From NCBI GenBank assembly GCA_031266215.1, contig JAISBL010000107.1, forward strand, positions 1 to 34,927: a DNA stretch of 34,927 nucleotides, given 5' to 3'. Below the pieces are notes generated by a model. It saw only the letters and a list, made by a program, of their open reading frames with translations. It did no database searches and was not told where the DNA came from. Each line of letters starts with the position of its first letter. Position 1 is the first letter of the stretch. Shown here one piece after another: positions 5,225-34,927 of this stretch. Source of the DNA: Tannerellaceae bacterium. Its GTDB lineage: Bacteria > Bacteroidota > Bacteroidia > Bacteroidales > Tannerellaceae. The position numbers and the translations under genes are program-made.

Positions 5225-5577
5225 TTTCGTACGCACGTTTGCCACTTTCGTGCGCACGTTTATCGTTTTCGTGCGCACGTTTGCCGTATTCGTGCGCACG
5301 TTTGCCGTATTCGTGCGCACGTTTGCCGTATTCGTGCGCACGTTTATCGCATTCGTGCGCACGTTTATCGCTTCCGTGCGCACGTTTGTCGCATTCGTGC
5401 GCACGTTTGTCGCATTCGTGCGCACGTTTGTCGCATTCGTGCGCATGTTTATCGCATTCGTGCGCACGTTTGTCGCATTCGTGCGCACGTTTGTCGCATT
5501 CGTGCGCACGTTTATCGCATTCGTGCGCACGTTTATCGCTTCCGTGCGCACGTTTGTCGCTTCCGTGCGCACGTTTG
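5225..5577. repeat. Array 1: 17 exact 21-bp tandem repeats with a palindromic core
   Basis: Seventeen cores of CGTGCGCACG (a perfect 10-bp palindrome) start at 5228, 5249, 5270 and so on to 5564, always 21 bp apart with no insertion or deletion. Two cores have one substitution (CGTACGCACG at 5228, CGTGCGCATG at 5438). The 11-bp spacer has the form TTT[GA][TC]CG[CT][AT]T[TC], with a few variants. Because 21 is a multiple of three and no stop occurs in the unit, all six frames are open through the array, which produces long artefactual heptad proteins. It lies between two plus-strand genes. No coding role is claimed. Confidence 0.97.
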
Positions 5578-5629
5578 TATGAAATTCTAACGGTTTTCTT
5601 GCGCCTCCGGCACGCATCGTTAACTTTAT

Positions 5630-5646
5630 TGGCAGTATATTTGCCA
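5630..5646 (+). promoter_or_regulatory. Promoter of the LysE-type gene inside an inverted repeat
   Basis: TATATTTG (5636-5643) is a perfect -7 box 34 bp before the ATG at 5677. It sits within TGGCA-N7-TGCCA (5630-5646), a dyad that could be a repressor operator over the promoter. The -33 box is not convincing. Confidence 0.5.
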
Positions 5647-5676
5647 GATGAAAGGGAATAGCAATAAACAGATTGA

Positions 5677-6297
5677 ATGCTGGGACTAATAGGTAAAGGG
5701 CTCGTTATAGGAATTCTGGTTTCGGCCCCGCTTGGGCCTGCCGGGATGCTATGCATACAGAGAACGCTCAACAGAGGCAGGTGGTATGGTTTTTTCACAG
5801 GGATAGGCGTCATGTTCTCAGACGTTATATATGCCGCCCTGACCTGCCTGGGAATGGGTTTTATGGTCGGCTTTATAGAAGCGAACGAATTGCTGCTCGA
5901 GATTATCGGCAGCATAGTACTCGGACTGTTCGGCTACTACACCTGCTGCAGCAACCCGGTGAAAGACCTGAGAAAACGTGTGGCCGGAAAAATATCATAC
6001 ACATATGGCTGCTTTACAGGTTTCTTACTTACCTTTAGCAACGTTTTGGTAGTTGTTTTATATATCGGGCTTTTCGCCCGGTTCGGCTTTGTAGCTACAG
6101 AGTACTCAGCATGGATGCTGCTGGCCGGGATAATATGCATAGGAGCGGGAGCGGCCATATGGTGGCTGGGAGTTACATATGTTATCTCAAGAATGAAAAA
6201 GTGGTTTAATATCCGGCATATCCGGATACTGAACAGAATAGTGGGCGCTGTCATAATCCTGCTTGCAATAATCGGAATTGTATCTTTAATTTTTTAA
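5677..6297 (+). CDS. LysE/RhtB-family amino-acid exporter
   Basis: 206 residues, almost wholly hydrophobic with about six membrane segments. The first carries SAPLGPAGMLCIQRTL, the conserved G-x-PxGP motif of LysE/RhtB transporters, with a mid-protein loop CSNPVKDLRKRV and a final helix IVGAVIILLAIIGIVSLIF. Proteins of this family export amino acids or related metabolites driven by the proton gradient; the substrate cannot be told here. The CBM9-like gene starts 26 bp downstream, so the two may be co-transcribed, although no functional link is obvious. The length matches the family. Confidence 0.85.
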   Translation: MLGLIGKGLVIGILVSAPLGPAGMLCIQRTLNRGRWYGFFTGIGVMFSDVIYAALTCLGMGFMVGFIEANELLLEIIGSIVLGLFGYYTCCSNPVKDLRKRVAGKISYTYGCFTGFLLTFSNVLVVVLYIGLFARFGFVATEYSAWMLLAGIICIGAGAAIWWLGVTYVISRMKKWFNIRHIRILNRIVGAVIILLAIIGIVSLIF

Positions 6298-6323
6298 AAC
6301 TGAAATTTATAAGTCAACTTAGT

Positions 6324-6968
6324 ATGAAAAATCTCGACATTCCTTACCTGCCTGCTCTTGATGTGCTTGACCTGTCATCTGTCGGTTTCCTGATGGAGAA
6401 CAAATCACGACGTATATACGTGAATGTTATCAACTGGGACAAATATCCGTACCTGCCTGTTGTAGTTGCCGACGTTGCGCGAAGCGACACCAGCCTGTAT
6501 ATACGCTTTTTTGTAAAGGGCAACTCCATGAAAGCCGTATACCCGGACGACGGCTCGCCGGTACACAAAGACAGTTGTGTGGAGTTTTTCATGAAAAAAG
6601 CAGATGAAGACTCGTACCTGAACTTTGAGTTCAACTGCATCGGCGCGTGCGATGCGTCACGCCGTACGTCGCGCGACAGTAAAACGCCATTCACAGGCAG
6701 GGACTATAGCCTGATACGACGCTACTCCAGTCTGGAACGCAAAGCGCTGCCTGAGCGCAAAGGCGTTCATGCGTGGGAGCTGGCCGTAGCGATCCCCCTC
6801 AGACTGATGGGACTGGACCCGGGCGCTCTGCCTGAAAAGATCCTCGGCAATTTCTATAAATGCGCCGACGAGACAGACTCGCCGCATTACGTGAGCTGGA
6901 ATCCGGTGGATACCCCTGCGCCTGACTTCCACCGCCCCGAATTTTTCGGCGAGATGTATTTCCGTTAA
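6324..6968 (+). CDS. CBM9-like carbohydrate-binding domain protein
   Basis: 214 residues without a signal peptide or membrane segment. The order YVNVINWDKYPYLP, then VEFFMKK...YLNFEFNCIGAC, and the C-terminal YVSWNPVDTPAPDFHRPEFFG match the single-domain carbohydrate-binding family 9-like proteins of Bacteroidota, which are usually cytoplasmic and of unproven ligand. The reading frame ends 2 bp before the stop of the convergent histidine kinase gene, leaving no room for a separate terminator. The family call is firm; the ligand is unknown. Confidence 0.82.
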   Translation: MKNLDIPYLPALDVLDLSSVGFLMENKSRRIYVNVINWDKYPYLPVVVADVARSDTSLYIRFFVKGNSMKAVYPDDGSPVHKDSCVEFFMKKADEDSYLNFEFNCIGACDASRRTSRDSKTPFTGRDYSLIRRYSSLERKALPERKGVHAWELAVAIPLRLMGLDPGALPEKILGNFYKCADETDSPHYVSWNPVDTPAPDFHRPEFFGEMYFR

Positions 6969-6970
6969 AA

Positions 6971-8704
6971 CTAAAGCTTCTTAAGGGTGAAGAGGAACTC
7001 CAGCCCGCCGTTGATACGGTTTTTCACCTGAATATCGCCTTTGTGGAAAAGGATGGCATTCTTCACTATCGACAGGCCCAGGCCTGAGCCTCCGGTATCG
7101 CGCGTGCGGCCTTCGTTTATACGGTAGAAGCGCTCGAATATGCGGCCCAGGTGCTGCTCGCCGACACCGACCCCGGTATCGTAATAAGAGAAGTAGAAAT
7201 AGCGCTCATCCCCGGCATACTGACTGATATGTATATCTATGTCATGCCCCGCGTAGCTGATGGAATTGTCGGCAAGGTTGCGGAAGATGGAGTAGAGCAG
7301 CGTATAGTTGCCCGTCACCGTGAGGCCCTCCGGAATGGACGATGTAAACCTGATGCGCTTTTCGGCAAGCCTGTCGCTGAGGTCGGTGCGCACTTCGCCG
7401 ACCAGTACCGGCAGGTTCACCTTCTCTACGCTGAACTGCGATGGAGCGTCTTCGATCTTGCTTATTATACTTACGTCTTCGATCAGGTTCGACAGGCGTA
7501 TTGCCTGCACGAAGGCGCGCTCGATAAACTGCTTCTGCCTGCTTTCGTCAAGCTCGTGGGTGTTCAGCGTTTCCAGATACCCGCGCAGGCTCGTTACGGG
7601 AGTGCGCAGCTCATGGGCGATGTTGCTTGTCATCTCCTGCTTCATGAGGCGGGTTTTTTCGGCCTTGCTGATGTCTTTTATGATTATCTCGAAACTGCCG
7701 TCTCCGAATATGATGGATTGCAACGAGAAAGTCCTGCCGTTTTTACTTATCTGGAAGACCATATGGTTGGTCTCCCTGTCTTCATCGTGAAGGAAATCGG
7801 TTACGGGCCTGAACATCTGGTCTTCCAGTATATCTTCTGCGTCAAAGGCGGGATAATCGGTTATCAGGTTGATGTAGCGTATAAAGCCTGTGTTGGCGTA
7901 TATCTTCTTCATATCGCGGTTGAAGATGCAAAGCCCCTCGCCGGAGAACCGGAAATGACGTATCAGCTTCTCGCGCTCTATCTCGGTATTCTTCCTGCTG
8001 TTCTCCATTTGCTTGAAGATGTCTGTCAGCTCATTGCCTATCTCGCCGAGCTCGTCGGCCTGGAAGTGCATATTCTCCGGGATGGATTGCCCTTTACGAA
8101 CCCTTTGCGAGAGTCGCTTCAACTGAAGTATTGATTTGCTGAAACGCCCGGCTACGTAGTTGATGAATATCAGGACGACAACAAAGAGGGCGACTATCAT
8201 GTAGGCAAACAGGTTTTCGGCTTTCAGCATATTGCGCGTCCCGGTATTGTAAGGCAGGGCTACGCGGACGTAGTAGGGGCTGAAATGCCGGGCGTAATAC
8301 AGGTATTCCTGACTGGTGGAGGCCGACGTCCGGATGTTTGTGCCGTACGCCGAACGAAGGGCGTTCATTATCTCCGGCCGGCCGAGGTGGTTATCCATGC
8401 GGTTGAGGTCGGCCACCTCATTGTCGAACAATACCTCTCCGCTGTCGTTAATGACCGATATGCGTATATGATCGGGCATAAGCCGGCTGAGTTCGCCCAG
8501 CCTCCCAATGGCATCGTCCCTCTCCTGCCCCTGCCGGCGGATAAACTCGTGTATGATCTCTGTGTATCCGTCCAGACGGGCTTCAAGGTCAGCCTGGCGG
8601 AAAGACTTCTCATGCTTCCGCTCGATCAGGATAACGCCCGCTGCAAACAAAAAGAAGATGATCAGGAAATAGCCGAATATGCGCCCCCGGTAATTAAGTC
8701 TCAT
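6971..8704 (-). CDS. PhoR-like membrane sensor histidine kinase
   Basis: 577 residues: TM1 at about 9-27, a periplasmic sensor loop of about 140 residues, TM2 at about 165-187, a HAMP linker (about 188-240), a PAS-like domain (about 245-350), HisKA with phospho-acceptor His364 in NIAHELRTPV, and an ATPase domain with the N box NLADNS (476-481), DTGVGVG (509-515) and GGSGLGLS (538-545). All catalytic motifs are present. The start ATG overlaps the response-regulator stop by 4 bp (ATGA), so the two are translationally coupled. The HAMP-PAS-HisKA order is that of PhoR and its Bacteroidota relatives (RprX type); the signal is not known. Confidence 0.92.
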   Translation of the reverse strand: MRLNYRGRIFGYFLIIFFLFAAGVILIERKHEKSFRQADLEARLDGYTEIIHEFIRRQGQERDDAIGRLGELSRLMPDHIRISVINDSGEVLFDNEVADLNRMDNHLGRPEIMNALRSAYGTNIRTSASTSQEYLYYARHFSPYYVRVALPYNTGTRNMLKAENLFAYMIVALFVVVLIFINYVAGRFSKSILQLKRLSQRVRKGQSIPENMHFQADELGEIGNELTDIFKQMENSRKNTEIEREKLIRHFRFSGEGLCIFNRDMKKIYANTGFIRYINLITDYPAFDAEDILEDQMFRPVTDFLHDEDRETNHMVFQISKNGRTFSLQSIIFGDGSFEIIIKDISKAEKTRLMKQEMTSNIAHELRTPVTSLRGYLETLNTHELDESRQKQFIERAFVQAIRLSNLIEDVSIISKIEDAPSQFSVEKVNLPVLVGEVRTDLSDRLAEKRIRFTSSIPEGLTVTGNYTLLYSIFRNLADNSISYAGHDIDIHISQYAGDERYFYFSYYDTGVGVGEQHLGRIFERFYRINEGRTRDTGGSGLGLSIVKNAILFHKGDIQVKNRINGGLEFLFTLKKL

Positions 8705-9408
8705 GAATGCCGGCGTTTTGCAGGGTTAAACAAATACCCGTACCCGGTGCGGTTAACGATGCAATCGGCATAAGGCCCTATCTTTTTCCTCAGCCGGGTG
8801 ATATGCACGTCTACGGTTCTCTCAAGTACAATACCTTCGTTGCCCCATGCTTTGTCAAGGATATCATTGCGCGAGAATATCTCCCCCTCGTTCTGTACCA
8901 GCAGCAGCAATATATTGTATTCGGTTTTTGTCAGCTCCACAACCTTCCCGCCGATGAAAAGCGTCTTCGTGCGGCGGTCTATCGCCATGTCGTCGGTCTG
9001 CAAAACATCCGGCTCCGTTTTTACCGGCGAACCAATTCGCCGCAGCACGCTTCTTACCCTTGCCACAACCTCCTTTATGGAGAAAGGCTTTGATATATAA
9101 TCATCCCCGCCGATGGAAAAGCCCGTCAGCATATCATTCTCCGTATTACGGGCGGTAAGGAATATCACCGGCGTCCGGTTACCATCCTTACGCAACTGGT
9201 CGGCCATTTTGAATCCCGACATGCCGCCCATCATAACATCCAGCAATATCAGGTGATGCCCCGGCGTGAGTATGCGTAACGCCTCTTCGGCGGACTCGGC
9301 CACGTCAATAAGGTATCCCTCGTTCTCAAGGTTAAACTGGAGTATCTCCCGGATGTCGGCCTCGTCGTCAACCACCAGGATACGTATGTTTTCGTTCTTC
9401 ATTTCCAT
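8701..9408 (-). CDS. OmpR/PhoB-family response regulator
   Basis: 235 residues from the ATG at 9408. The receiver has acidic Asp14/Asp15, phospho-acceptor Asp57 (LILLDVMM), Thr85 and Lys107 (SKPFS). The C-terminal winged helix has KVVELTKTEYNILLLL and RTVDVHITRLRKKIG. Other starts are possible: ATG at 9402 gives MKNENIRI, and TTG at 9432 would add eight residues; the ATG is preferred. The kinase gene overlaps its 3' end. Four half-sites spaced by 11 bp lie just upstream (9448-9485) and suggest autoregulation. The PAP2 phosphatase gene upstream ends at 9482, so read-through from its promoter is also possible. Confidence 0.92.
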   Translation of the reverse strand: MEMKNENIRILVVDDEADIREILQFNLENEGYLIDVAESAEEALRILTPGHHLILLDVMMGGMSGFKMADQLRKDGNRTPVIFLTARNTENDMLTGFSIGGDDYISKPFSIKEVVARVRSVLRRIGSPVKTEPDVLQTDDMAIDRRTKTLFIGGKVVELTKTEYNILLLLVQNEGEIFSRNDILDKAWGNEGIVLERTVDVHITRLRKKIGPYADCIVNRTGYGYLFNPAKRRHS

Positions 9409-9429
9409 TACTGAATTCTTTATGTGTTG

Positions 9430-9485
9430 CAAGGATAAGTGAGAGTTGTAACAGAACGGTTACGGAAAAGTTACCAGACGGTTAA
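9430..9485 (-). promoter_or_regulatory. Predicted regulator-binding site: four half-sites spaced 11 bp
   Basis: Read on the minus strand, TTAAC (9485-9481), GTAAC (9474-9470), GTAAC (9463-9459) and GTTAC (9452-9448) start exactly 11 bp apart. OmpR/PhoB-type regulators bind direct repeats on an 11-bp period, and the gene following is such a regulator. A near-consensus -7 box TATCCTTG (plus 9430-9437) lies directly downstream, so the sites would overlap the -33 region. The site also overlaps the end of the PAP2 gene by 4 bp. Confidence 0.5.
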
Positions 9486-10228
9486 AACCGGCAGGCAAAC
9501 CCCAGTCCGTACATATCGTTCCCTGCCAGCGGGACGATGCTGATGTCTCGTCCGTCGTCGCCCATAATCCGCCTGAAGGCCGGCAGCAGCAGGTAAGCCG
9601 CCTCGACGCTCAGTATGCCAATCCCGGCCCCCGCCACCACGTCACTCAGCCAGTGCTTCCGGTTCATCATACGCATAATACCCGTAGCGCCCGCCGTAGC
9701 GTAACCGGCGACGCTTATCCAGGGCGAATGCCCGCCATATTCCCTGAACAGTATATGCGCTCCGGTAAAGGCGGTGGCGGTATGCCCGCTTGGGAATGAA
9801 TTATCGGCCGAGTTGTCGGGCCGCCTCACGCTCAGGCTGTTTTTGACCGCATGTACAGACGCCGTCATGATAAGGTGCGAAGAAACCATCACAAACGTGC
9901 GGTCCCGCAGACTGTTCCTGGCCTTCACTCCGGCGAAATCCAGTCCGTACACCGCCACGGCGGGCGCATATTGCACATAATCATCTATCCATGTATGGCC
10001 GTGGGCGATCTCATTGTTTACAAACCTGTCCAGCCTTTTAAACGCGGGTATAGCCTGCGTCGCCGCACCGTAAGCAACAAACGCGGCGGGGAGTATCAGC
10101 CTGCCATACGACCCGGCGCTCACCTGCGCAGGCGCGTCGTACCTGAAGTGTAGGCTGTCGCTCTGGGCATGAGCCGTGTTTGCAAATATCACAACGGACA
10201 GGAGGGAGAACAGCGATAAATAATTCAT
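9482..10228 (-). CDS. Membrane-associated PAP2-family phosphatase
   Basis: 248 residues with an N-terminal signal peptide (cleavage near AHA-QS) and hydrophobic segments. The three phosphatase motifs are complete: K129-x6-R136-P137 (KNSLSVRRP), PSGH (146-149, catalytic His149) and R186-x5-H192-x3-D196 (catalytic His192). This class hydrolyses phosphatidic acid, undecaprenyl diphosphate or lipid A phosphates at the periplasmic face; the substrate is not determined by sequence. The neighbouring two-component genes on the same strand suggest, but do not prove, a link to phosphate or envelope sensing. It has its own good promoter upstream. Confidence 0.9.
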   Translation of the reverse strand: MNYLSLFSLLSVVIFANTAHAQSDSLHFRYDAPAQVSAGSYGRLILPAAFVAYGAATQAIPAFKRLDRFVNNEIAHGHTWIDDYVQYAPAVAVYGLDFAGVKARNSLRDRTFVMVSSHLIMTASVHAVKNSLSVRRPDNSADNSFPSGHTATAFTGAHILFREYGGHSPWISVAGYATAGATGIMRMMNRKHWLSDVVAGAGIGILSVEAAYLLLPAFRRIMGDDGRDISIVPLAGNDMYGLGFACRF

Positions 10229-10264
10229 TTGGTCTCGTTTAATAATGATCCTTTAAGAGCATGG

Positions 10265-10296
10265 CAAATGTAAATGAATTACTTAAATCCGGCAAA
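10265..10296 (-). promoter_or_regulatory. Promoter of the PAP2 gene
   Basis: Minus strand TTTG (plus CAAA 10293-10296), 20 bp, then TACATTTG (plus 10265-10272): an excellent Bacteroidota promoter, placed about 37 bp before the ATG at 10228. Confidence 0.7.
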
Positions 10297-10320
10297 CAGG
10301 CGCCTTCGACCCGTCTCCGA

Positions 10321-10355
10321 CCGGGCGCCGGCAGGGCTTCCCGTACGGCGCCCGG
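10321..10355. other. Unexplained perfect 9-bp G/C hairpin
   Basis: CCGGGCGCC (10321-10329) and GGCGCCCGG (10347-10355) are perfect inverted copies around a 17-nt loop, lying between the divergent PAP2 and cysK promoters. No U-run follows on either strand, so it is not a standard terminator. It could be a protein-binding dyad. Confidence 0.6.
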
Positions 10356-10401
10356 GCTAATATACCATATGCAAGGTATTTAACGCCCGGTTTTGCGGTT
10401 T

Positions 10402-10409
10402 TATCTTTG
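10402..10409 (+). promoter_or_regulatory. -7 box TATCTTTG for cysK
   Basis: A perfect TAnnTTTG 34 bp before the cysK ATG. No clear TTG at the expected -33 position. Confidence 0.55.
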
Positions 10410-10443
10410 TCGCGTTTGATTACTAAATTTTAAAAGAAATATC

Positions 10444-11391
10444 ATGGGAAAAATTGCAAAGCAACTGACAGACCTCATAGGTAATACCCCTCTGCTGGAG
10501 TTGTCAAATTACAATGCAGACAAGGGTCTGAAAGCACGCGTAATCGGCAAGCTGGAATATTTTAATCCGGCCGGTAGCGTAAAAGACAGAATCGCCTTGT
10601 CGATGGTTACGGATGCCGAAGAAAAAGGTTTGCTCAGACCGGGGTCTACGATCATTGAACCGACAAGCGGGAATACCGGCGTAGGGCTTGCTTTCGTCTC
10701 AGCCTCCAAAGGCTATAAGCTCATCCTTACGATGCCGGAAACGATGAGCCTGGAACGCCGCAACCTCCTGAAAGCCCTGGGGGCAAATCTGGTGCTTACG
10801 CCGGGCAGCGAAGGCATGAAGGGCGCAGTGGCCAGGGCCGAAGCGTTACAGAAAGAGACGCCTGGCTCCATAGTCCTCCAGCAATTCGAAAACCCGGCCA
10901 ATCCGGCCATACACCGCCAGACAACGGCGCGGGAGATATGGGAGGATACTGACGGGAAGGTTGACATCTTTGTCAGCGGCGTAGGCACGGGAGGAACCGT
11001 CAGCGGCGTAGGCGAGGTGCTGAAATCGCTCAACCCGAAGATAGAGATCGTCGCCGTAGAGCCGGCCGATTCTCCGGTGCTGTCGGGAGGTAAACCCGGT
11101 GCGCACAAGATACAGGGGATAGGGGCCGGCTTTGTTCCTAAAATATACGACGGGAAGGTGGTAGACCGCATTGTCAGGGTGGCTAATGACGACGCTATCC
11201 GTACAAGTCGCGAACTGGCCCGGCAGGAAGGGCTTCTGGTAGGAATATCGTCGGGGGCCGCCGCATTTGCCGCTACCGGGCTTGCCCAACTTCCGGAAAA
11301 CGAAGGAAAAATAATCGTCGCCCTGTTACCCGATACGGGAGAGAGATATTTGTCTACTGTTCTTTATGCTTTTGAAGAATATCCGCTGTAA
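10444..11391 (+). CDS. cysK: Cysteine synthase A (O-acetylserine sulfhydrylase)
   Basis: 315 residues, the usual length. PLP-binding Lys47 is in [10 protein letters not shown], the substrate loop TSGNTG is at 74-79, and [10 protein letters not shown] supplies the phosphate-binding turn. The enzyme makes cysteine from O-acetylserine and sulfide in the cytoplasm. It is a single-gene unit with its own promoter and terminator, between a minus-strand phosphatase and the sigma-factor locus. The C-terminus [17 protein letters not shown] lacks the regulatory extension of plant or fungal forms. CysK is favoured over CysM by its overall similarity and the TSGNTG loop. Confidence 0.95.
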
Positions 11392-11564: not shown

Positions 11565-12149
11565 ATGCGCTTGGCGATTGACATTGATAAACTTAGACAA
11601 GGAAATCAGGATGTATTCCGTGATTTCTTTGTCTTGTTCTATCCTAAAATGATGGCATTAGCCTGCCGTTTTGTAGACGAACAAACGGCTGAAGACCTGG
11701 TTCAGGAGGTATTTGCCTCTTATTGGGAACAAAGAAAGGAGATACAGGCGGATAATATCCGGTCTTTCCTTTATAAATGGCTGCAAAACAGATGCCTTAA
11801 CCACCTTAAACACCAGATGGTAGCCGATGAATACGAAGCCCGCGTAAAGATTGCCGAGGCGCGGATCGCTTTTTTAAATGAATCTTCCGACGTGAACGAT
11901 GTATTTAAACAGGTGGTAAACCAAAACATCCGCGAAGTGATAGAAATCTCAGTCAGGAAGCTCCCTCCCAAATGTGCACAGGCTTTCAGGTTATGCTATT
12001 ATCATGATATGTCGCATAAGGAAATTGCTGATGCTATGGACATTTCTCCACGCACGGTAGAAGGACATATACGCCAGGCGACCCTTTTTTTACGTGACGA
12101 CCTGCGTGATCTTTTCATGCTGTTCTTCGTGTTTTACGGCACGGTTTGA
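11565..12149 (+). CDS. ECF RNA polymerase sigma factor of the glycan-locus type
   Basis: 194 residues. Region 2 includes FRDFFVLFYPKMMALACRFV and TAEDLVQEVFASYWEQR; region 4 has KLPPKCAQAFRLCYYHDMSHKEIADAM and ISPRTVEGHIRQA, the helix-turn-helix for the -35 element. This is the Bacteroidota ECF group that pairs with a FecR anti-sigma and a SusC transporter with an STN domain. RBS AAAGGA lies 5-10 nt before the ATG. Unusually, FecR is not adjacent but 613 bp downstream, separated by array 2. Expected role: activates the susC/susD genes when the transporter binds substrate. Confidence 0.92.
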   Translation: MRLAIDIDKLRQGNQDVFRDFFVLFYPKMMALACRFVDEQTAEDLVQEVFASYWEQRKEIQADNIRSFLYKWLQNRCLNHLKHQMVADEYEARVKIAEARIAFLNESSDVNDVFKQVVNQNIREVIEISVRKLPPKCAQAFRLCYYHDMSHKEIADAMDISPRTVEGHIRQATLFLRDDLRDLFMLFFVFYGTV

Positions 12150-12426
12150 TTTTTTTATTACTGTCCGCTAAAAACATAATTGTCCTTATAATTAAGGGCT
12201 GATATTCCGTAATTGATCATAGAAAAAGCGCAGGAATACAGATAAATTGCGTTAAGAAAGGCTTTGTGCAGGTGTATTTTACCGAATGGTGAAACAGGCG
12301 GTGACGTTTTGTTGTGACCGGAATGTTTTTATAAGGAGCGGATAATTAAAAGGTTAGTAATCTATTACACTCGTGTGAGCCGGATAAAAACACGCAGGGG
12401 ACTCTTTTATTTACCCGGAAATTTGT
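12150..12426 (+). other. Sigma-FecR intergenic, left part
   Basis: A T-run follows the sigma stop (12149-12156) but without a strong stem. Beyond that I see no gene, promoter or repeat before the array starts at 12427. Confidence 0.4.
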
Positions 12427-12691
12427 TCCCGCCGCACGTGGGACAGGTTTTATCCCGCATGGGATAGATTTCATTTGACGTGTTATGGATTTCATCTCAT
12501 GTGGGATAGATTTTATCTCATGCGGGACAGGTTTCATTTGAAGTGTTATGAATTTCATCTCACGTGGGACAGGTTTTATCCCACATGGGATAGGTTTCAT
12601 TTAACGTGTTATGGATTTCATCTCAAGTGGGATAGATTTTATCTCATGTGCGGCGGATTTCATTTTTCATGAGGCGGGTTTTATCCGGCGG
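12427..12691. repeat. Array 2: about twelve 21-bp repeats with a 63-bp super-repeat
   Basis: Consecutive 21-bp units begin at 12448, 12469, 12490 and so on to 12679, plus a degenerate unit from 12427. Three unit types recur in order: TTTTATC[CT]C....GGGA[TC]AG, then TTTCATTTGACGTGTTATG, then TTTCATCTCA[CTA]GTGGGA, giving a 63-bp higher-order repeat seen about three times before it degenerates at the right end. Dyads occur within units; for example TATCCCACATGGGATA (7-bp arms) near 12577-12592. Frames stay open on both strands because 21 is a multiple of three. It separates the sigma gene from the FecR gene. Confidence 0.93.
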
Positions 12692-12762
12692 TTGTTTTTT
12701 TCTGTATCCCCGCCACGTAGTTTTACCTCTCTCAACTGTCTTCTTTATACACATAGCCGAAA

Positions 12763-13749
12763 ATGGATGATCAATTACTTATAAGGTTTCTAACGCACCG
12801 GTGCCGGGAGGAAGAACTCCGGCAGATAAGCCGATGGATTGCAACGGACAAATCCAACGCCGACTGGCTGTTTGAGATGGAGCAGATATGGAGCTTAAAG
12901 GATGAACTGCGCTTTTCGGACGAACAGAAGATCAGCCGGGCCTATAACAGGTTCGTTTCGGGAATGGAAGCCAAGCCTGCCATGAAACCGGGGAAACGGG
13001 TGTTTATCTCTGTCATGAAGTATGCGGCCGCCGCAGTAATTATCCTTCTTCTGTCGGTAAACCTGTACAGGATGCTGGAGGAGGAGGAAGTTCCTTTATC
13101 AATGAACATTGTCGAAGTCCCTATGGGCGAACGCGCGTCGTTGACGTTAAGCGACGGCACCAAAGTGTGGCTCAATGCCGATACCAGATTCTATTACCCT
13201 TCACGGTTTATGTCAAAAAAGAGAGGTGGCAGGGAAGTAATGATCGATGGTGAAGGCTATTTTGAAGTGGCTAAAGATGAAAAACGGCCTTTCGTCGTAA
13301 AAGGCGACCTGTTTGATATAAGCGTTTTAGGAACAGAGTTCAATGTGAAGGCCCATAAGAATGAGCCCGCGGAGATTTCCCTGAAAGAGGGTAAGATCAA
13401 AGTCGGCACGCCAGGCAGAGATGATCCGATGATCCTTAGTCCCAATGACCAGATTCAGGTTTCAACAAACGGGAAGACCAGGCTCCAGCAAATAGATATG
13501 TCAACAGTCAACAGTTGGACTAACGGCGAGATTGCGTTTAAAGACGAGCCTTTATCGGTTATTATTAAAACACTGGAGCGGAAGTTCAATACTCCCATTG
13601 TCCTGGTAGACCGTGATCTGTCCGACGAGCTTTTCCACTGCCGGACGTCTTCGGAAAAGACGCTGCCCGAAGTGCTGGACCTGTTAAAGGATACCAGGCG
13701 GATGAACTACAGGTTTGAAAACAACAAAGTATTAATTACAAAAAAGTGA
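12763..13749 (+). CDS. FecR-type anti-sigma factor
   Basis: 328 residues: an N-terminal cytoplasmic part (1 to about 82), one membrane segment YAAAAVIILLLSVNLYRML (about 87-105), a periplasmic FecR domain (VPMGERASLTLSDGTKVWLNA... FDISVLGTEFNVKA) and a C-terminal DUF4974 domain (GEIAFKDEPLSVIIKTLERKF... NYRFENNKVLITKK). Known role: holds the ECF sigma at the membrane until the STN domain of SusC signals. The SusC gene follows 122 bp downstream across a strong hairpin. No canonical promoter was seen upstream; array 2 lies just before it. Confidence 0.93.
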   Translation: MDDQLLIRFLTHRCREEELRQISRWIATDKSNADWLFEMEQIWSLKDELRFSDEQKISRAYNRFVSGMEAKPAMKPGKRVFISVMKYAAAAVIILLLSVNLYRMLEEEEVPLSMNIVEVPMGERASLTLSDGTKVWLNADTRFYYPSRFMSKKRGGREVMIDGEGYFEVAKDEKRPFVVKGDLFDISVLGTEFNVKAHKNEPAEISLKEGKIKVGTPGRDDPMILSPNDQIQVSTNGKTRLQQIDMSTVNSWTNGEIAFKDEPLSVIIKTLERKFNTPIVLVDRDLSDELFHCRTSSEKTLPEVLDLLKDTRRMNYRFENNKVLITKK

Positions 13750-20103: not shown

Positions 20104-20112
20104 CGGCTTAGT

Positions 20113-20152
20113 GCGAACTGCATTGGCCCACACGCACGGGCCAATGCATCGC
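20113..20152 (+). terminator. Terminator-like hairpin after the SusCD unit
   Basis: TGCATTGGCCC (20119-20129) and GGGCCAATGCA (20138-20148) form a perfect 11-bp stem with an 8-nt loop, extended by GCGA/TCGC past a 2-nt bulge. No U-run follows. It marks the end of the susC-susD-DUF3823 unit before array 3. Confidence 0.6.
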
Positions 20153-20264
20153 AGAGGCATGCGCTGATAACCTGAGTTTATGAGAAAACCAACCGCTCCC
20201 TCTCGTTGTCACTACCGATGACGACGATAGGGAGCAGTCAGGCAGGGTATTTCGCTGACACTTA

Positions 20265-20413
20265 AGAAGATACTTCACTAACGCTTAATAAGGCGCTTCA
20301 TCAGCATTTTTGAAGGACCTTCATAGCCCTTATGAAGGACCTTCATAGCCCCTTATGAAGATGCTTCATAGCCCTTATGAAGGTGCTTCATAAGCCCCTG
20401 TGAAGGTGCTTCT
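20265..20413. repeat. Array 3: seven dyads every 22-23 bp
   Basis: Seven 13-bp dyads start at 20265, 20288, 20311, 20333, 20356, 20378 and 20401 (spacings 23, 23, 22, 23, 22, 23). The best are TGAAGG-A-CCTTCA; outer ones keep GAAG...CTTC. The linker is AGCCC-type with TTA. Unlike arrays 1, 2 and 4 the period is not a multiple of three, so it cannot be a heptad coding repeat. It lies between the DUF3823 and beta-helix genes. Confidence 0.9.
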
Positions 20414-20630
20414 AAAACGCCGGGTAAAAACCGGAGTCCGGGATATGAGGGCGCCTCTGTAAAACGCGCCCGTGACGCCGCTCGTGTGAGGGTTTCTCTT
20501 ATGTCGAACTCAGGCTGATGTTATAACAGAGGTCTGCGCTGATATTATCGCAGGCATATGAGAAAAAGCGTAATTTCGCCCTGCGGCAAATTATCATGAG
20601 ATTTAATAACCAACTAAAAACATACGTATT
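20414..20630 (+). other. Leader of the beta-helix gene
   Basis: No gene is seen. TAATTTCG (20571-20578) is one base from a TAnnTTTG -7 box and lies 52 bp before the ATG, so it is a weak promoter candidate. Confidence 0.3.
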
Positions 20631-29201: not shown

Positions 29202-29513
29202 TTAATAACGATTTCTGTTGTATCCGCCACCGTTTCCGCCACGATTGTTGTAACCACCGCCACTTCTCTCTGTTTTAGGACGGGCGACGTTTACAATAAT
29301 TGTTTTTCCCTCAAAATCTGTTTCATTCAATTCTGAAATGGCATTTTGGCCTTCTGTGTCATCAGACATTTCTACAAAGCCAAAGCCGCGCGATCTGCCT
29401 GTTTCACGGTCTGTAATAATTTTAGCAGAAGTTACTTCTCCGTACGCTGCAAATAATTCCTGTAAACTTTCGCTTGTTGTGCTAAAGTTCAGATTTGATA
29501 CATAAATGTTCAT
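29202..29513 (-). CDS. RRM-domain RNA-binding protein
   Basis: 103 residues. A single RNA-recognition motif: RNP2 as IYVSNL (3-8) and RNP1 as SRGFGFVEM, flanked by the usual FSTTSESLQELFAAYGEV and GKTIIVNVARPK. The tail SGGGYNNRGGNGGGYNRNRY is glycine-rich and basic, as in many bacterial RRM proteins that bind RNA at low temperature. It follows the cold-shock gene by 28 bp on the same strand, in an A/T-rich block with helicase and cold-shock genes, which suggests an RNA-chaperone operon. Confidence 0.92.
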   Translation of the reverse strand: MNIYVSNLNFSTTSESLQELFAAYGEVTSAKIITDRETGRSRGFGFVEMSDDTEGQNAISELNETDFEGKTIIVNVARPKTERSGGGYNNRGGNGGGYNRNRY

Positions 29514-29541
29514 TTGTTTTTTATTTTATTATTATTATTGA

Positions 29542-29994
29542 TTATTGGTCACTCTTATTGGCAAGGGCGATCCTGACGGCATTCATACCTTTCTGACCGC
29601 GTTCCAACTCGAATGTTACCATATTTCCTTCTGTAATGGATGCCGGGGCGCTACTGACATGAAAAAAATACTTGTCTGTACTTCCTGTATGCTTGATGAA
29701 GCCATATCCTTTATCCTGATTAAAATATTCTACCCTGCCATTTAATACAATATCTTCCATATCTTCTTTTTTAGGAGTAGAGATAACGATATTTTCTATT
29801 TTTGTTTTCTGTTTTTTCGCCAGATCGGGAGGGGTATCTGTTATAACCCCATTCTCATCCACATATGCAATCATATTGTCAAACGAATCTGTCGGATTAT
29901 TTTTTCGTTCCTCTCTTCTCTGTTGCTTTTCTTTCCTCTTTTGTTGTTTATTTTTTTCTATTTCCCTTTTATTAAATGAATTTGATTTCGCCAT
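29542..29994 (-). CDS. Cold-shock-domain protein with a long basic N-terminus
   Basis: 150 residues. Residues 1-32 are highly basic and rich in Lys, Arg, Gln and Glu (REIEKNKQQKRKEKQQRREE), a likely disordered RNA-binding tail. A cold-shock domain begins near 84: GRVEYFNQDKGYGFIKH and KYFFHVSS, with RNP1 KGYGFI (95-100) and RNP2 YFFHVS (109-114). Known role: binds single-stranded nucleic acid and unwinds mRNA structure. It is twice the length of a plain Csp. It lies 57 bp after the small protein of the helicase operon. Confidence 0.9.
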   Translation of the reverse strand: MAKSNSFNKREIEKNKQQKRKEKQQRREERKNNPTDSFDNMIAYVDENGVITDTPPDLAKKQKTKIENIVISTPKKEDMEDIVLNGRVEYFNQDKGYGFIKHTGSTDKYFFHVSSAPASITEGNMVTFELERGQKGMNAVRIALANKSDQ

Positions 29995-30051
29995 ATCTAT
30001 ATTTGAAGTATTTGTGTTTAATTATTACTAAGTTATATTTTAGAACGGTTT

Positions 30052-30291
30052 TTATACCTTCGATTTATGCAGACTGATATATTTTTTCACCCTGGCATCA
30101 ATTTCTTCCTGCGATAAATGAGCCGGAAGCTCGATTGTAGTCCTGGCGCTAATAGCGATATGGATCACATCTCCGGATTTCTCTTTCGCACTTTTCAATA
30201 CATATCCGGCTTGCTGAGTTGCCGATGCTCTTTCGGAATGGGTTATTTCCCTTTCTTTTTTGTTTACGGGCGGTTTTTGTCTTGCTGCCAT
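30052..30291 (-). CDS. Small basic protein of the cold-shock operon, unknown function
   Basis: 79 residues from the ATG at 30291; a TTG at 30321 would add ten residues and abut the helicase stop, but ATG is preferred. The sequence starts MAARQKPPVNKKEREITHSE and continues to TTIELPAHLSQEEIDARVKKYISLHKSKV. It is basic and has no signal. I do not recognise the family. Co-location with helicase and cold-shock genes suggests a role in RNA handling, which is inference only. Confidence 0.6.
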   Translation of the reverse strand: MAARQKPPVNKKEREITHSERASATQQAGYVLKSAKEKSGDVIHIAISARTTIELPAHLSQEEIDARVKKYISLHKSKV

Positions 30292-30321
30292 ATTCGATTC
30301 GTTTAAAACAGATACCTGCAA

Positions 30322-31437
30322 TTAGTTTGATACCATAAGATTTTTCCCTGTCAGTTTTTGGATATCTTTAAGCATCGCCCTCTCATCATCGGCACAAAAT
30401 GTCAGCGCAGTACCTTTGTTTCCTGCTCTTCCTGTCCGCCCGATACGGTGTACATACGTTTCGGCAACATCAGGTAAGTCATAATTTATGACTAAATCCA
30501 GTTGATCTATATCAATTCCCCTGGCAGCGATATCTGTTGCAATAAGAGTTTGTATCTTGTGCAACTTAAAATCGGTCAGGGCGCGTTGCCTGGCATTCTG
30601 AGATTTATTTCCATGAATAGCTGCACTACCTATTCCGGATTTGCTGAGTATCCGTGCTATCTTATCTGCTCCATGCTTGGTACGGGAGAATATCAGTACT
30701 GATTTGCTTTTGTCTTTTTTCAGCAAATTTATGAGTAAGTCCTTCTTTTCCTGTTTTTCTACAAAATAGATATATTGTTTTATAGTATCTACAACCGATG
30801 ACACCGGGGTAACTTCCACCTTTACAGGATTACGTAAAATTGAACGCGAAAGGGTTGCGATAGATGAAGGCATTGTTGCCGAAAAGAAAAGAGTTTGTTT
30901 TTCTTTTGGAAGCTTAGGTAACAGGCGTTTAATATCATGGATAAATCCCATATCCAACATCCGGTCGGCTTCGTCAAGCACAAAATGGCGGATAGAATTC
31001 AAACTGACGATTCCCTGATTCATTAAGTCAAGCAAACGACCAGGGGTGGCGACCAAAATATCTATGCCGGTTTTCAATTCGTTTACCTGAGCGCTTTGCT
31101 TCACCCCTCCGTAAATTACACAATGACGGATACCTGTATATGGAGTGTAATCATTCAGGCTGTCATTGATCTGAATTGCCAGTTCACGGGTTGGAGTTAA
31201 GATCAATGCCTTAATTTCACTTTTCTTCCCTTTGACTTTATTCAAATACAATTGTTGTATGATTGGAAGAGAGAAGGCAGCGGTTTTACCTGTTCCTGTT
31301 TGCGCCAATCCCAGGATGTCGCAATTACTAAGAGCCGGAGCTATAGCCTGCTGTTGTACCGGAGTAGGATTTGTGTGTCCTTTTTCGTTTAGAGCTCTCA
31401 ATACCGGCTCAATAATGTTTAATTCTTTAAATGTCAT
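30322..31437 (-). CDS. DEAD-box RNA helicase
   Basis: 371 residues, a minimal helicase core. Q motif with TPVQQQAI (25-32), Walker A AQTGTGKT (45-52), TPTRELA, DEAD (155-158) followed by RMLDMGF, SAT (186-188), then TDIAARGIDIDQL and HRIGRTGRAGN. There is no C-terminal extension, so it resembles RhlE-type cold-shock helicases. It unwinds short RNA duplexes with ATP. A 7-bp inverted repeat lies in its leader 15 nt before the ATG. It is the first gene of the cold-shock block. Confidence 0.94.
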   Translation of the reverse strand: MTFKELNIIEPVLRALNEKGHTNPTPVQQQAIAPALSNCDILGLAQTGTGKTAAFSLPIIQQLYLNKVKGKKSEIKALILTPTRELAIQINDSLNDYTPYTGIRHCVIYGGVKQSAQVNELKTGIDILVATPGRLLDLMNQGIVSLNSIRHFVLDEADRMLDMGFIHDIKRLLPKLPKEKQTLFFSATMPSSIATLSRSILRNPVKVEVTPVSSVVDTIKQYIYFVEKQEKKDLLINLLKKDKSKSVLIFSRTKHGADKIARILSKSGIGSAAIHGNKSQNARQRALTDFKLHKIQTLIATDIAARGIDIDQLDLVINYDLPDVAETYVHRIGRTGRAGNKGTALTFCADDERAMLKDIQKLTGKNLMVSN

Positions 31438-31451
31438 ATTTTAATATTGAT

Positions 31452-31474
31452 CTGTTACAGATTCTGCGTAACAG
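31452..31474 (-). promoter_or_regulatory. Hairpin in the helicase leader near the RBS
   Basis: CTGTTAC (31452-31458) and GTAACAG (31468-31474) can pair in the leader RNA, only 15-37 nt before the helicase ATG. It could affect translation start, for example as a temperature-sensitive structure, but no function is shown. Confidence 0.4.
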
Positions 31475-31538
31475 TGTTTTTTTATTTTTAATTATTACAC
31501 CTCTTATCTGATAGCCTCAACCACGGCCTTTTCTGCAT

Positions 31539-32615
31539 TTACTTTACTCCTGCAAGTTTTGCATTCAGAAATTCAGCTTTTAGATTGGAGATAACTTCTT
31601 TCACAGTTGATATTTTCTGAGAGAGGTGAACATTTATTCCTGTAAATGCGTAACCTTTTTTCATATTACCTTTTGCTGCCTGATAAAGGCATTGGGCAAT
31701 ACAGTAAGGACTTTTAGTATAATCGCAGGTCTTTATACAGTGAAAAGGACAGGTTTTAGGCTTCTCCAGCCCTTTTTCTACACTTTGTATAAATTCACCG
31801 TCAATGGCCCTGCCCGGCATCCCGACGGGGCTTTGTATAATCTTTATATCTTCCTGTTTTGCATTCACAAAAACATTCTTAAACGTATCGGATGCATCGC
31901 ATTCGGTGGTAGTGACAAATATTGTACCCATTTGAATGCCCGAGGCGCCCATCTCAAGAAAACGGTATATATCTTTACCCGATGATATTCCTCCTGCCGC
32001 AATCACAGGTATATGTTTTTCTTCTTTATACGAACCGGCTATAGCCACAATTTCCGGGATAAGCTGTTCCAGAGAATATTTCTCATCTTCAAGTTGATTT
32101 ATTTTGAACCCTAAATGACCACCGGCCTTAGGACCTTCGACTACAATAGCGTCGGGCAAATAGTTATAATTATTTTTCCACTTGTCGCATATAATTTTGA
32201 CTGCCCGTGAAGAGGATAAGATAGGGACCAGCTTCGTTTTACTTTCAGCGGTCAGATAGGAAGGTAAATCGAGCGGTAATCCTGCTCCGGCGAAGATAAC
32301 GTCAACTTTTTCGGCTATCGATGTTTTTACCATATCGGCATAATTAGTCAGGGCTACCATGATATTTACTCCGATTATACCTTTACTCTTTTCTTTAGCC
32401 TTATTGATTTCCTCTTTCAATCCCGAAATACACTTGGCTAAATAATCCCCCGGAGATTTATGGTAAATTAAACCCAGACCGGCACATGATATAACCCCGA
32501 TACCTCCTTCGTTAGCAACGGCTGACGCCAGCCCTGACAGGGAAACGCCTATCCCCATTCCACCTTGTATAACCGGAAGTTTTACTTCCAGATTACCTAT
32601 AAAAAATGATTTCAT
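31539..32615 (-). CDS. Nitronate monooxygenase / 2-nitropropane dioxygenase-type flavin oxidoreductase
   Basis: 358 residues. An FMN barrel: VIQGGMGIGVSLSGLASAVAN, then IGVISCAG, GIIGVNIMV, VVEGPKAGGHLG and VIAAGGISSGKDI, GASGIQMGTIFVTT. Near the C-terminus is a Cys-rich stretch CPFHCIKTCDYTKSPYCIAQC, seen in related Bacteroidota enzymes. Known activity of the family is oxidation of nitronates, but several members are FabK-like enoyl reductases; the Cys-rich tail here leaves the role open. It is a separate unit upstream of the helicase operon with 101 bp between them. Confidence 0.85.
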   Translation of the reverse strand: MKSFFIGNLEVKLPVIQGGMGIGVSLSGLASAVANEGGIGVISCAGLGLIYHKSPGDYLAKCISGLKEEINKAKEKSKGIIGVNIMVALTNYADMVKTSIAEKVDVIFAGAGLPLDLPSYLTAESKTKLVPILSSSRAVKIICDKWKNNYNYLPDAIVVEGPKAGGHLGFKINQLEDEKYSLEQLIPEIVAIAGSYKEEKHIPVIAAGGISSGKDIYRFLEMGASGIQMGTIFVTTTECDASDTFKNVFVNAKQEDIKIIQSPVGMPGRAIDGEFIQSVEKGLEKPKTCPFHCIKTCDYTKSPYCIAQCLYQAAKGNMKKGYAFTGINVHLSQKISTVKEVISNLKAEFLNAKLAGVK

Positions 32616-32792
32616 TCTATTTGCAAAAATGTGTCACGATATTGCGTTTCACACCTTCGCGACGGATTAATACTATAAACAAGTAAGTTGATTTTTGATG
32701 TCAATTTTGACAATTGGAAGTCTCGTTGATAAGCAACGAAGCTAAACATTGCGAAGAAAAAAGATACAATATAAACTTGACTGTTCAAGTCG

Positions 32793-32800
32793 CAAAGATA
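32793..32800 (-). promoter_or_regulatory. -7 box candidate for the flavin oxidoreductase gene
   Basis: Minus strand TATCTTTG (plus CAAAGATA), a perfect TAnnTTTG about 178 bp before the ATG at 32615. No -33 box was found, and the leader would be long. Confidence 0.35.
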
Positions 32801-32841
32801 TGAAAATAATTTAAAGTTTATATTATTATCTTGTTTATTGC

Positions 32842-32855
32842 CAGAGCTGACGCAT
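32842..32855. mobile_element. IS end remnant
   Basis: CAGAGCTGACGCAT is a third copy of the end sequence found at 28961 and 34348. It lies 40 bp before the transposase fragment and reads toward it, as the left end of an internally deleted IS would. Confidence 0.5.
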
Positions 32856-32881
32856 TCTGAATGTACTTTTCATTTATGTAA

Positions 32882-33037
32882 GTAAAAGCATATTTTTCAG
32901 CCCCAAAAGAAGCGGATTATATCACTGCCATGAAAGGTAATCAGGGTAACCTGTTGGAACAGGCTGTCCCGGTATTGCGCCGGAAGAGCCTGTATTATAA
33001 AAGCTTAAAATGGAAAGTGTTCAGGATTTGGCGATAA
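32882..33037 (+). pseudogene. ISAs1-family transposase fragment
   Basis: A stop-to-stop fragment of 51 codons reads VKAYFSAPKEADYITAMKGN and QGNLLEQAVPVLRRKSLYY. The part DYITAMKGNQGNLLE matches the ISAs1-family motif (A)DYV.ALKGNQ..L. The rest of the transposase is missing, and the fragment overlaps the end of the convergent DUF4469-type gene by 17 bp, so it is a decayed insertion. Confidence 0.72.
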
Positions 33038-33797
33038 ATAACTGCTCGGCGCGTACGCGGCGTACTTCTGTGAGCGCCGCACTGCCGTTTTTGACGCCTG
33101 ACCGGGTAACTGCTTCGATGTAGTAATCAGTTTCCGGAACGAGGTCCTCCGGTACAATGGCCGCAAGGGTGTGAGGCTCGTTTATTATCACGGAAGCTGA
33201 CCTGTAGGCAGACCGCATGCCGTCGGTTGGTATAAACCACAGTCCGACCTCATCAATATGTTCCTGACTGTCATCATGCTCTATCTTAAGTCCGGTTCCA
33301 TTGATATGAATGGGCCTGCCGATGGTTATAACCTCATTCTCTTTGCCCGTGACGTCGTCTGCGACGGTGAATATGTGACCGTTAGCCTCATCGACCCCCT
33401 TAATATCCACCTTTACATTATCTTTTAAGTATTGCCGGAATATCCTCGTTACCTGTATCCGGGGCTCCGGGCGAACGCCTTCGGGCAGACTGGTCTCGTA
33501 ACCGTCGTACTCGCCCGGTACGCCGATGCGGGTGCGGAAGAGCAAATTTTCTATACCATAGCCGTCCGCCGCGAGGTATGCGCAGAGGTTGAAGTACTGG
33601 TTCACGTTTAGCACCATATCTTCGGGGTCTGTGTATTCGTCGTATAGCGAAGCCTTTGCAGCCACTTCGCGCACGCTGAGGTAGGGGAGGGCCTGTGGCA
33701 GTGCGATATACTTTTTCTTATGATTGGGAAGTGTGTTCTCCGCGAGCCACACAGTGACGCTGTGTATCACGTCTTTCAGTTTAGGGATTGTTTCCAT
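33021..33797 (-). CDS. HU-like DNA-binding protein with a DUF4469 Ig-fold domain
   Basis: 258 residues. The N-terminal half (KKYIALPQALPYLSVREVAA... LFRTRIGVPGEY) has the spacing of Bacteroidota HU-like domains; the C-terminal half (VITIGRPIHINGTGLKIEHDD... SVIINEPHTLAAIVPEDLVPETDYYIEAVTR) is a DUF4469 immunoglobulin-like sheet. The family is usually called DNA-binding, but direct evidence is limited. No transposase or amidase partner remains except the IS fragment touching its 3' end. The likely small lipoprotein gene is 133 bp upstream. Confidence 0.7.
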   Translation of the reverse strand: METIPKLKDVIHSVTVWLAENTLPNHKKKYIALPQALPYLSVREVAAKASLYDEYTDPEDMVLNVNQYFNLCAYLAADGYGIENLLFRTRIGVPGEYDGYETSLPEGVRPEPRIQVTRIFRQYLKDNVKVDIKGVDEANGHIFTVADDVTGKENEVITIGRPIHINGTGLKIEHDDSQEHIDEVGLWFIPTDGMRSAYRSASVIINEPHTLAAIVPEDLVPETDYYIEAVTRSGVKNGSAALTEVRRVRAEQLFIAKS

Positions 33798-33930
33798 ACT
33801 GTTGTTTGTTTTAAATTAATTATTAAGGTATTTTCAGAAAGGTCTGGATATGCCGGCGGCGCCACGGGCGCGTTCTATGCGGAAGCTGTAATGACGGCGC
33901 TGGATGCAGGCTGTTGTGGCCTGATGGTTG

Positions 33931-34134
33931 TCAGCGTCGCGCGGGCTTTGCCGGGGTCTTCGCCGCCCTGCGTGTCGTCAGGCGTAGTACGTGCATGGTA
34001 AGATACCGCATGTTTTCGGCGCTAAGAACTACGGGCTGAATTCTTCCATAGCCATCAGATGTGTTATCTTTGCCACATCCTGTCGCCGCCATTCCTGTGA
34101 TAGCCGTGGCCGCAAATAATTTAAAGTTTTGCAT
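33931..34134 (-). CDS. Doubtful small lipoprotein, possibly frameshifted
   Basis: 67 residues starting MQNFKLFAATAITGMAATGC, a lipoprotein signal with Cys20, then GKDNTSDGYGRIQPVVLSAE. After about residue 45 the frame becomes Arg-rich (RLTTRRAAKTPAKPARR). In another frame of the same strand the sequence RTTPDDTQGGEDPGKARA continues more naturally to about 33890. A frameshift near 34000 is therefore possible. It lies upstream of the DUF4469-type gene on the same strand. Confidence 0.4.
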   Translation of the reverse strand: MQNFKLFAATAITGMAATGCGKDNTSDGYGRIQPVVLSAENMRYLTMHVLRLTTRRAAKTPAKPARR

Positions 34135-34850
34135 TGGTAGATACGTTTATTGTTTCCGTTGCGAAGTTCGTGCATTATTCACAATTTCCGAAATAAATAC
34201 ACTCCCAAAAGTTCATCTGTTTCGCCTCGAAACCAACCAAAAAGTTCACCTTTTCAACCAATATCTGAAACGCGACTATTGCCCACTCATACGGGCGTGC
34301 GATGTTCTTCTTGTGTCTGACTCAGATTATAAGGGTGGACGCTCAGCCAGGGCTGACGCATCTGATTTATCAGGAGTTTGCACGGATATTTATTATCCCA
34401 TCCTGCTTTTGATCGTTTACCTCTCACTCCGTCTTTTGTTGTTTTCTAATTTTTAAGCGGGTTCAGGGCAATGCGGTTTGCTCCGATGAGGCGCTGGCCT
34501 GATGTATATTTACGCAGTGTATTGCGCCGCTGCCTGCCAGCATTCGATACTTCTGCCGTACGGCGCCTGTATATCAGCGTTTGTAGCCGGCTGCGATTGT
34601 CTGTCGGCCGGTCAGGCAGGTGTACTGCCGTTTCAGATTGCAATTCACAATGTGTGTAAATAAAATTATCTGTGTAATTTAATTTTTCATCTGTACTCCC
34701 ATACCGTTTTCCTGCGCCGTACACGATTGCTCCCGAAATGCTCATATGCCTGTATATTAATTAATAAGACACTTTATTGTCTGATGTTTTCACGCACAAA
34801 CATAAAAAAAACACAAATTAATTCTCTTATTTTTCACAATTATTTTATTT
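34135..34850. other. Intergenic with no supported gene
   Basis: Apart from the IS end at 34348, only two weak signals are seen. AAAAGTTCA occurs twice (34207 and 34240), and a 99-codon minus frame (34446-34745) has no recognisable domain and is not accepted. Confidence 0.4.
34348..34410. mobile_element. IS end copy homologous to the 29060-29120 element
   Basis: CAGGGCTGACGCATCTG followed by ATTTATCAGGAG and, after divergence, TATTTATTATCCCATCC, closely similar to the minus strand of the element ending at 29119. Only one end is present. Confidence 0.6.
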
Positions 34851-34927
34851 TATCACGTACGTGATAGCTTTTATTACGTGCATGATAATTACTATTACGT
34901 ACGTAACAATTTCTATCACGTACATGA
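34851..34927. repeat. Array 4: 21-bp palindromic repeats, cut by the window edge
   Basis: Units start at 34851, 34872, 34893 and 34914, exactly 21 bp apart. The first core TATCACGTACGTGATA is a perfect 16-bp palindrome. The third core has TTACGTACGTAA where the first has TCACGTACGTGA: two changes at mirror positions that keep the symmetry. The spacer is 5 bp (GCTTT, ATTAC, ATTTC). The array continues past the end of the window. Confidence 0.9.

Follow-up and report, generated by a model that had tools for sequence, protein, structure and literature searches.

Four short-period tandem arrays with palindromic cores lie within a single bacterial contig, which raises the question of what kind of DNA they are and how they came to be there. 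The window analyzed here is the whole of contig C9 (JAISBL010000107.1, positions 1-34927; 34,927 nucleotides) of a gut-type Tannerellaceae bacterium (GCA_031266215.1), the genome of which comprises 2,695,745 bases in 134 contigs and is 87% complete. The original prediction, made from the letters of the window, described four unrelated arrays that share a dyad core about every two helical turns, and proposed phased binding sites for a dimeric protein, hairpin RNA spacers controlling read-through, or locus-private minisatellites made by a common mechanism. The arrays are probably the minisatellite cores of small, non-autonomous elements resembling miniature inverted-repeat transposable elements (MITEs), multiplied in intergenic DNA. 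At least three of the four window arrays belong to small dispersed DNA elements. Mobility is shown for array 3 by its ends and target duplications and for array 2 by an empty site, and we infer it for the rest.

Judged from its sequence features, the element that carries array 3 is clearly a MITE, a known kind of mobile element that is unusually abundant and diverse here. The copies that align with it at full length (Table 1) are versions of a single element, the ends of which are asymmetric and the core of which is a 23-bp array; in the copy at locus L019 the left end has a small gap. Loci L008, L017, and L024 align in part. Target duplications of 5 bp agree at all five positions in L019 (ACGTA) and L101 (CTAAA), and at four in the window copy. 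Three further copies have no clear second end. No gene is called in 20104-20630, and the element contains no transposase gene. A genome-wide search with its region yields 68 match rows, which overlap and include the window itself, so that the figure is not a count of loci.

With up to three mismatches allowed, the end sequence ACCTGAGTTCGATGTAAGAAAA occurs 44 times in the genome, and its backward control not at all. A sample was drawn that consists of the window and 40 further stretches in contig order, regardless of content (609,800 bases, ∼23% of the genome). Within it, at up to five mismatches, the end occurs at 25 sites, every one intergenic; 17 have an array within 400 bp, and the shuffled control yields a single site. 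The same ends flank IS982-family transposases in relatives G012 and G007 (NF033520, E 4.5e-75 and 3.9e-76, respectively), the G012 element being bordered by the target duplication TATCA. The present genome has nine partial matches to this transposase, three of them with stops. The array-3 element therefore shows each MITE feature examined: inverted ends, a target duplication, a short, many-copy form without transposase, and an autonomous partner, the last in relatives. A DDE_Tnp_1 transposase on contig C110 was considered as the mover and dropped, as no such ends are present in its locus. In relative G041 (L174), an IS630-type open reading frame adjoins one copy of the end, with no good second end there.

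The element that carries array 2 begins 7 bp past the stop codon (12149) of a sigma-factor gene. In two relatives (L004, L005) the site is empty, and the 3' end of the sigma gene is contiguous with a ACGTAGTTTT segment before FecR. The right edge of the element is uncertain because ∼14 window bases beyond the assumed edge have no match. Its region gives 66 match rows, again overlapping and inclusive of the window, and identity is 93-96% in L119, L120, L121, and L128. For array 2 and array 4 alike, the comparison of loci took in 10 of the 13 others retrieved. Only the left edge of the array-4 element is visible, since the contig end cuts the array. Pfam assigns the neighbors of array 2 to an extracytoplasmic function (ECF) sigma factor and FecR; across window positions 12149-12763 the sigma factor is split from its FecR-type partner, the two lying ∼60 bp apart in two relatives. 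A module of ∼60 bp (ATTACTGTCCGCTAAAAACATAATTGTCC...) is found at many loci, where it stands alone or flanks array-2-type arrays left and right as a direct repeat.

Table 1. Positions of the arrays and of element features in the window (TRF, Tandem Repeats Finder; labels beginning with L are loci)
Feature	Position	Strand	Remarks
Complete MITE with array 3	20170..20515	+	346 bp; full-length alignment with L101, L107, L019
Left terminal inverted repeat	20170..20191	+	degenerate, 3-base deletion
Right terminal inverted repeat	20494..20515	-	4 mismatches to ACCTGAGTTCGATGTAAGAAAA
Target-site duplication, left copy TGATA	20165..20169	+	
Target-site duplication, right copy TGATG	20516..20520	+	4/5 equal to left copy
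Dispersed element with array 2	12157..12698	+	∼542 bp; left edge sharp, right edge uncertain by ∼15 bp
Left terminal module of array-2 element	12157..12215	+	start recurs right of array, direct orientation, in L120, L122, L123
Leader of array-4 element	34346..34846	+	shared wholly or partly by 10/10 other loci compared, 75-89% identity
Array 1	5226..5578	.	16.8 units of 21 bp, 0% indels, core CGTGCGCACG; TRF
Array 2	12435..12665	+	degenerate 21-bp units, higher-order periods 63 and 126 bp; TRF
Array 3	20290..20412	+	22-23-bp units, 45-bp dimer, GAAG-NNN-CTTC dyads; TRF
Array 4	34847..34927	+	21-bp units around ACGTACGT, truncated by contig end; TRF

All four predicted arrays were recovered by TRF, including the exact 21-bp period of array 1 and the 22-23-bp period of array 3. 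Arrays of this size are common in the sample as a whole. TRF found 83 arrays (overlapping calls collapsed, periods of at least 9 bp counted, several arrays at one locus counted apart): 29 with a period of 21 bp, 7 of 22, 31 of 23, and 16 of all other periods. Periods of 21-23 bp thus account for 67 of the 83, compared with 0, 0, and 2 arrays in three Markov-1 versions of the 610-kb sample, which rules out chance; among arrays with at least five copies, 43 have such a period and one has any other. These 67 arrays make up 2.2% of the sampled DNA, or ∼110 per Mb. A simple gene caller treats 11 of them as coding, of which six are, in our judgement, reading frames made by the array itself and five lie in real-looking genes; frames across period-21 arrays are open because that period keeps them open. 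The genome scan for arrays above background that the original prediction had called for was therefore favorable as to occurrence, and dyads at the family level likewise exceed those of shuffles (see below).

Some loci in this population have a particular structure. The 21-bp-period arrays at L011:2094-2206 and L012:8834-8996 lie inside genes and have similar flanks, and are therefore a coding repeat, unlike the arrays found between genes. At four composite loci (L008:4666-5183, L017:1-447, L039:5861-6528, and L054:33-496), two or three array families adjoin, as if elements had been inserted beside or into one another. Eight of the 67 arrays come to within 60 bp of a stretch end, which in all eight cases is also a contig end; arrays seem to break metagenome assemblies.

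Sharing of flanks was scored for 54 of the 67 arrays, namely those with at least 2.5 copies after removal of three coding ones (L011, L012, L041). A flank within 150 bp is common to another sampled locus in 36. Among the 18 arrays negative in the sample, genome-wide searches that included the flanks covered arrays 2 and 4, and the addition of these two brings the arrays with a shared leader or tail to 38. Intergenic DNA is 39.7% dispersed repeat up to 300 bp from an array and 15.2% farther off. Flank identity within families is 95-100% in some (for example, L006/L022/L023) and about 71-94% in others. Arrays 2, 3, and 4 are found as parts of dispersed elements in many places in the genome, so they are not locus-private as had been proposed. 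Of the three roles originally offered, minisatellites made by a common mechanism comes closest once that qualifier is removed for these three arrays.

Permissive single linkage of unit sequences places the 54 arrays in 20 loose families, 13 of which have at least two arrays. Arrays 2 and 4 fall in one cluster under this rule, and to call the four window arrays unrelated was too strong. Within arrays, units are 0.858 identical, and between sister arrays 0.765 (means of the 13 families). Dyads were measured in two ways. The strict measure, which compares eight ungapped pairs with shuffled units and is too strict for looped palindromes, is significant for array 3 (p 0.001) and not for array 1 (0.081), array 2 (0.217), or array 4 (0.055), so that the dyads ascribed to every array are upheld by this measure for one of them. 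The second measure, which allows a loop and was scored over the 20 families, gives a mean stem score of 5.22 compared with 3.72 +/- 0.19 for 500 shuffles, the highest of which reached 4.38. A tendency toward dyads is therefore genuine but not general: the family mean exceeds the shuffles, yet p is below 0.1 in only 10 of the 20 families, the others being unremarkable.

Such symmetry could reflect the docking on the arrays of a dimeric DNA-binding (nucleoid) protein that reads dyads about two turns apart, with unit length and dyad under selection and sequence free. The narrow range of unit sizes over 20 families agrees with this, as do dyads above shuffles at the family level and in six of seven relatives, for which no common sequence is needed; a protein of this kind was proposed by Subirana and Messeguer for constant-size satellites (PMC8161180, from the part of the text available). 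However, units of 23 bp (31 arrays) are as common as those of 21 bp (29 arrays) and break the helical phase: at 10.5 bp per turn, a 23-bp unit does not equal two turns, so the claimed two-turn spacing does not hold for these units. About half of the families lack a clear dyad, and no candidate protein emerged. Compensatory change was sought in arrays with a stem score of at least 5 and at least four distinct units, and was absent: the 65 dyad column pairs variable on both sides have a complementarity gain of -0.036, compared with -0.002 for other pairs. In a simpler count, 19 double changes keep pairing, 11 of them in a single array, and 321 of 1,858 cells are unpaired. These data give no support to selection acting on every unit's dyad, and a role as protein-binding sites is unlikely, although a protein for which a part of the dyads suffices would be compatible with them.

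The same dyads, together with the position of the three complete window arrays between co-directional genes, might instead reflect a transcribed hairpin RNA that governs read-through or stability of the neighboring operon. Stem mismatches in the 32 arrays with at least three copies and a stem score of at least 5 lean toward G.T when read in gene sense (34 G.T, 21 A.C), as such a role would have it; the lean is small and comes from non-independent arrays, and the + strand has 87 G.T and 88 A.C. Co-direction is true of the window arrays but is not a rule across the sample, where the 37 arrays placed between two genes comprise 19 in co-directional, 12 in divergent, and 6 in convergent gaps (a further 19 arrays have no gene on one side). 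Arrays in divergent gaps are as frequent as expected from the reference intergenic gaps of at least 100 bp, which number 99, 45, and 24, respectively. Besides the lack of covariation, the sigma-FecR spacer is without the array-2 element in two relatives, and the window has no Rfam match at gathering thresholds. The read-through proposal is therefore unsupported, and a hairpin RNA of this kind is very improbable.

Short intergenic palindromes at many loci also recall repetitive extragenic palindromes and bacterial interspersed mosaic elements (REP/BIME), which would be moved by a REP-associated tyrosine (RAYT, Y1) transposase. This is scarcely credible here: Y1_Tnp (PF01797) has no match in this 87%-complete genome, and the same search is positive in 21 of 39 relatives. 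A clustered regularly interspaced short palindromic repeats (CRISPR) array was rejected, since the units are head to tail without spacers.

Related genomes also harbor such arrays. At periods of 20-24 or 40-48 bp, array density in seven relatives, each sampled over a small 74-200 kb, ranges from 13.5 to 119 per Mb, compared with 111.5 here; the same-genus relatives G006, G009, G010, and G011 have 50, 66.5, 13.5, and 119, respectively. When arrays with periods of 21-23 or 41-46 bp are scored, 1 to 10 per genome, the stem score exceeds shuffles in six of the seven (G006, G009, G011, G020, G019, and G010, not G027). The end ACCTGAGTTCGATGTAAGAAAA is present in 20 of 59 relatives, including 12 of 17 in the same genus, with one control site in one genome. 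G011 has arrays of 41 and 43 bp (L073:10794-11270, L074:3708-3972, L071, and L075), similar in length to the 41-nt PgRS repeat discussed below.

Several observations weigh against arrays as cores of MITE-like elements. For sixteen of the 54 arrays, including array 1, no flank in common with another locus was detected; for array 1, neither the sample flank comparison nor its genome matches gave a common leader, tail, or ends. The array-2 element shows no terminal inverted repeats, and its end module is repeated directly, so an inverted-repeat element is not demonstrated there. For the array-3 element, L107 has no target duplication, its empty site did not align, and no target duplication was seen around the IS982-family element of G007. 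Of the 25 sampled end sites, the array lies inside the end within 400 bp at 12 and outside at 7; the IS982-type end therefore does not bound every nearby array. In the relatives, the 20 loci with the end include only four that have an array of 19-22 bp inside it within 400 bp (for example, AAAGGTCCGGACCTTTTTTGAG in G016, L193) and two that have a 21- or 42-bp array outside; 11 of the 20 stretches stop less than 400 bp inside. Two of the 13 families do not show the greater likeness of units within arrays.

The arrays without a shared flank (array 1 and 15 others) and the seven sites with the array outside the end would also be expected if the arrays were independent local minisatellites unlinked to mobile elements, their shared flanks coming from other repeats nearby. 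However, the array-3 copies align as a single element, array and ends together, and the leaders of arrays 2 and 4 accompany the same arrays elsewhere. An independent local origin is accordingly improbable, and cores of dispersed elements remain the preferred reading.

Array 1 lies between an Mfa2 gene (ending at 5191) and a LysE-type gene (starting at 5677), and array 3 between genes for a DUF3823 and a pectate-lyase-like protein (Pfam). The array-1 repeats match one other locus in the genome, with similarity confined to the repeats. Long open frames cross the array on both strands, 5209-5661 (+) and 4679-5617 (-), because its period is a multiple of three, and gene callers may report spurious repeat proteins there. 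No tRNA was found in the window. Its SusC gene has two named relatives among those found, in Parabacteroides sp. PF5-9 (86%) and a Tannerellaceae metagenome-assembled genome (85%). As a whole, the original observation is partly confirmed and its interpretation partly supported.

The pattern had been thought to match no described system, which is incorrect: MITEs of the BrickBuilt and PgRS types, and bacterial satellites of constant size, were already published. Two of the genera concerned are Porphyromonas, in the order Bacteroidales, and Cardinium, in the phylum Bacteroidetes. The portions available of Klein et al. 2015 (PMC4596501) describe, in P. gingivalis, BrickBuilt with 23-nt units, PgRS (464; 41-nt units), and 22-nt direct repeats. 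BrickBuilt and PgRS resemble the elements found here in having an intergenic tandem core between leader and tail with no transposase inside; further likenesses are the changing copy number of units and the predicted stem-loops. The end printed for P. gingivalis MITE239, ACGTGAGTTCGATATAAAGGAA, also resembles the end found here. The two systems differ in that the repeats described for P. gingivalis are in two element types, compared with ∼20 unit families of 21-23 bp in a single genome here, and in the parent, which is IS5 for the P. gingivalis elements and an IS982 partner in relatives here. The string 'palindrom' is absent from that available text. The BrickBuilt/ISPg1-type end GAGACCTTTGCA has one match at up to one mismatch in the 41 stretches and its reversed control two; judged by its ends, the array-3 element is not BrickBuilt.

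Constant-size, variable-sequence repeats of 20-23 nt, a size of about two helical turns, occur in many bacteria (Subirana and Messeguer, PMC8161180; available portion). They share with the present arrays the repeat size, the non-coding location, several families per genome, and species-specific sequences, and this genome has what defines them, at least four non-coding repeats of 20-23 nt in several families in one genome. In contrast, that portion reports no mobile-element link or dyad, and the strings 'palindrom', 'hairpin', and 'Bacteroid' are absent from it. MITECca01 of Cardinium is likewise an IS982-derived MITE; it measures ∼240 bp, and 'tandem' is absent from the part of the article available (PMC9769881). 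In the literature covered, mostly outside subscription papers and partly in excerpt, no report was found of a single genome with many families of dyad-cored units of 21-23 bp, or of a tie between constant-size satellites and MITEs. The present arrays represent a known kind of repeat in diversified form.

A sequence of steps can be proposed for the origin of these arrays. An IS982-type transposase acting in trans may have moved the array-3 class, and other families would use other ends and movers. After insertion, unit number would shift by slipped-strand copying or unequal exchange, which would keep the units of one array alike. The dyad would mostly be inherited from the founding unit through duplication and not through selection on each unit. 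Array 1 may have lost its leader and tail, or never had them. The narrow range of unit size is not explained by anything tested. A tentative proposal, for which our confidence is low, is that size- and symmetry-constrained, sequence-free minisatellites keep arising anew inside the non-autonomous elements of this bacterial family; the founding unit would have to be 21-23 bp and mostly dyad-bearing, since no other geometry would be tolerated, irrespective of sequence, by a dyad-binding protein or by some step of replication or transposition.

These findings connect two bodies of literature that were found apart, one on MITEs that contain a minisatellite and one on the constant-size satellites of bacteria, which lacked an explanation. 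The cores of mobile elements provide a possible origin for constant-size satellites, and the present lineage is well suited to asking what sets the unit at 21-23 bp and what favors a dyad within it.

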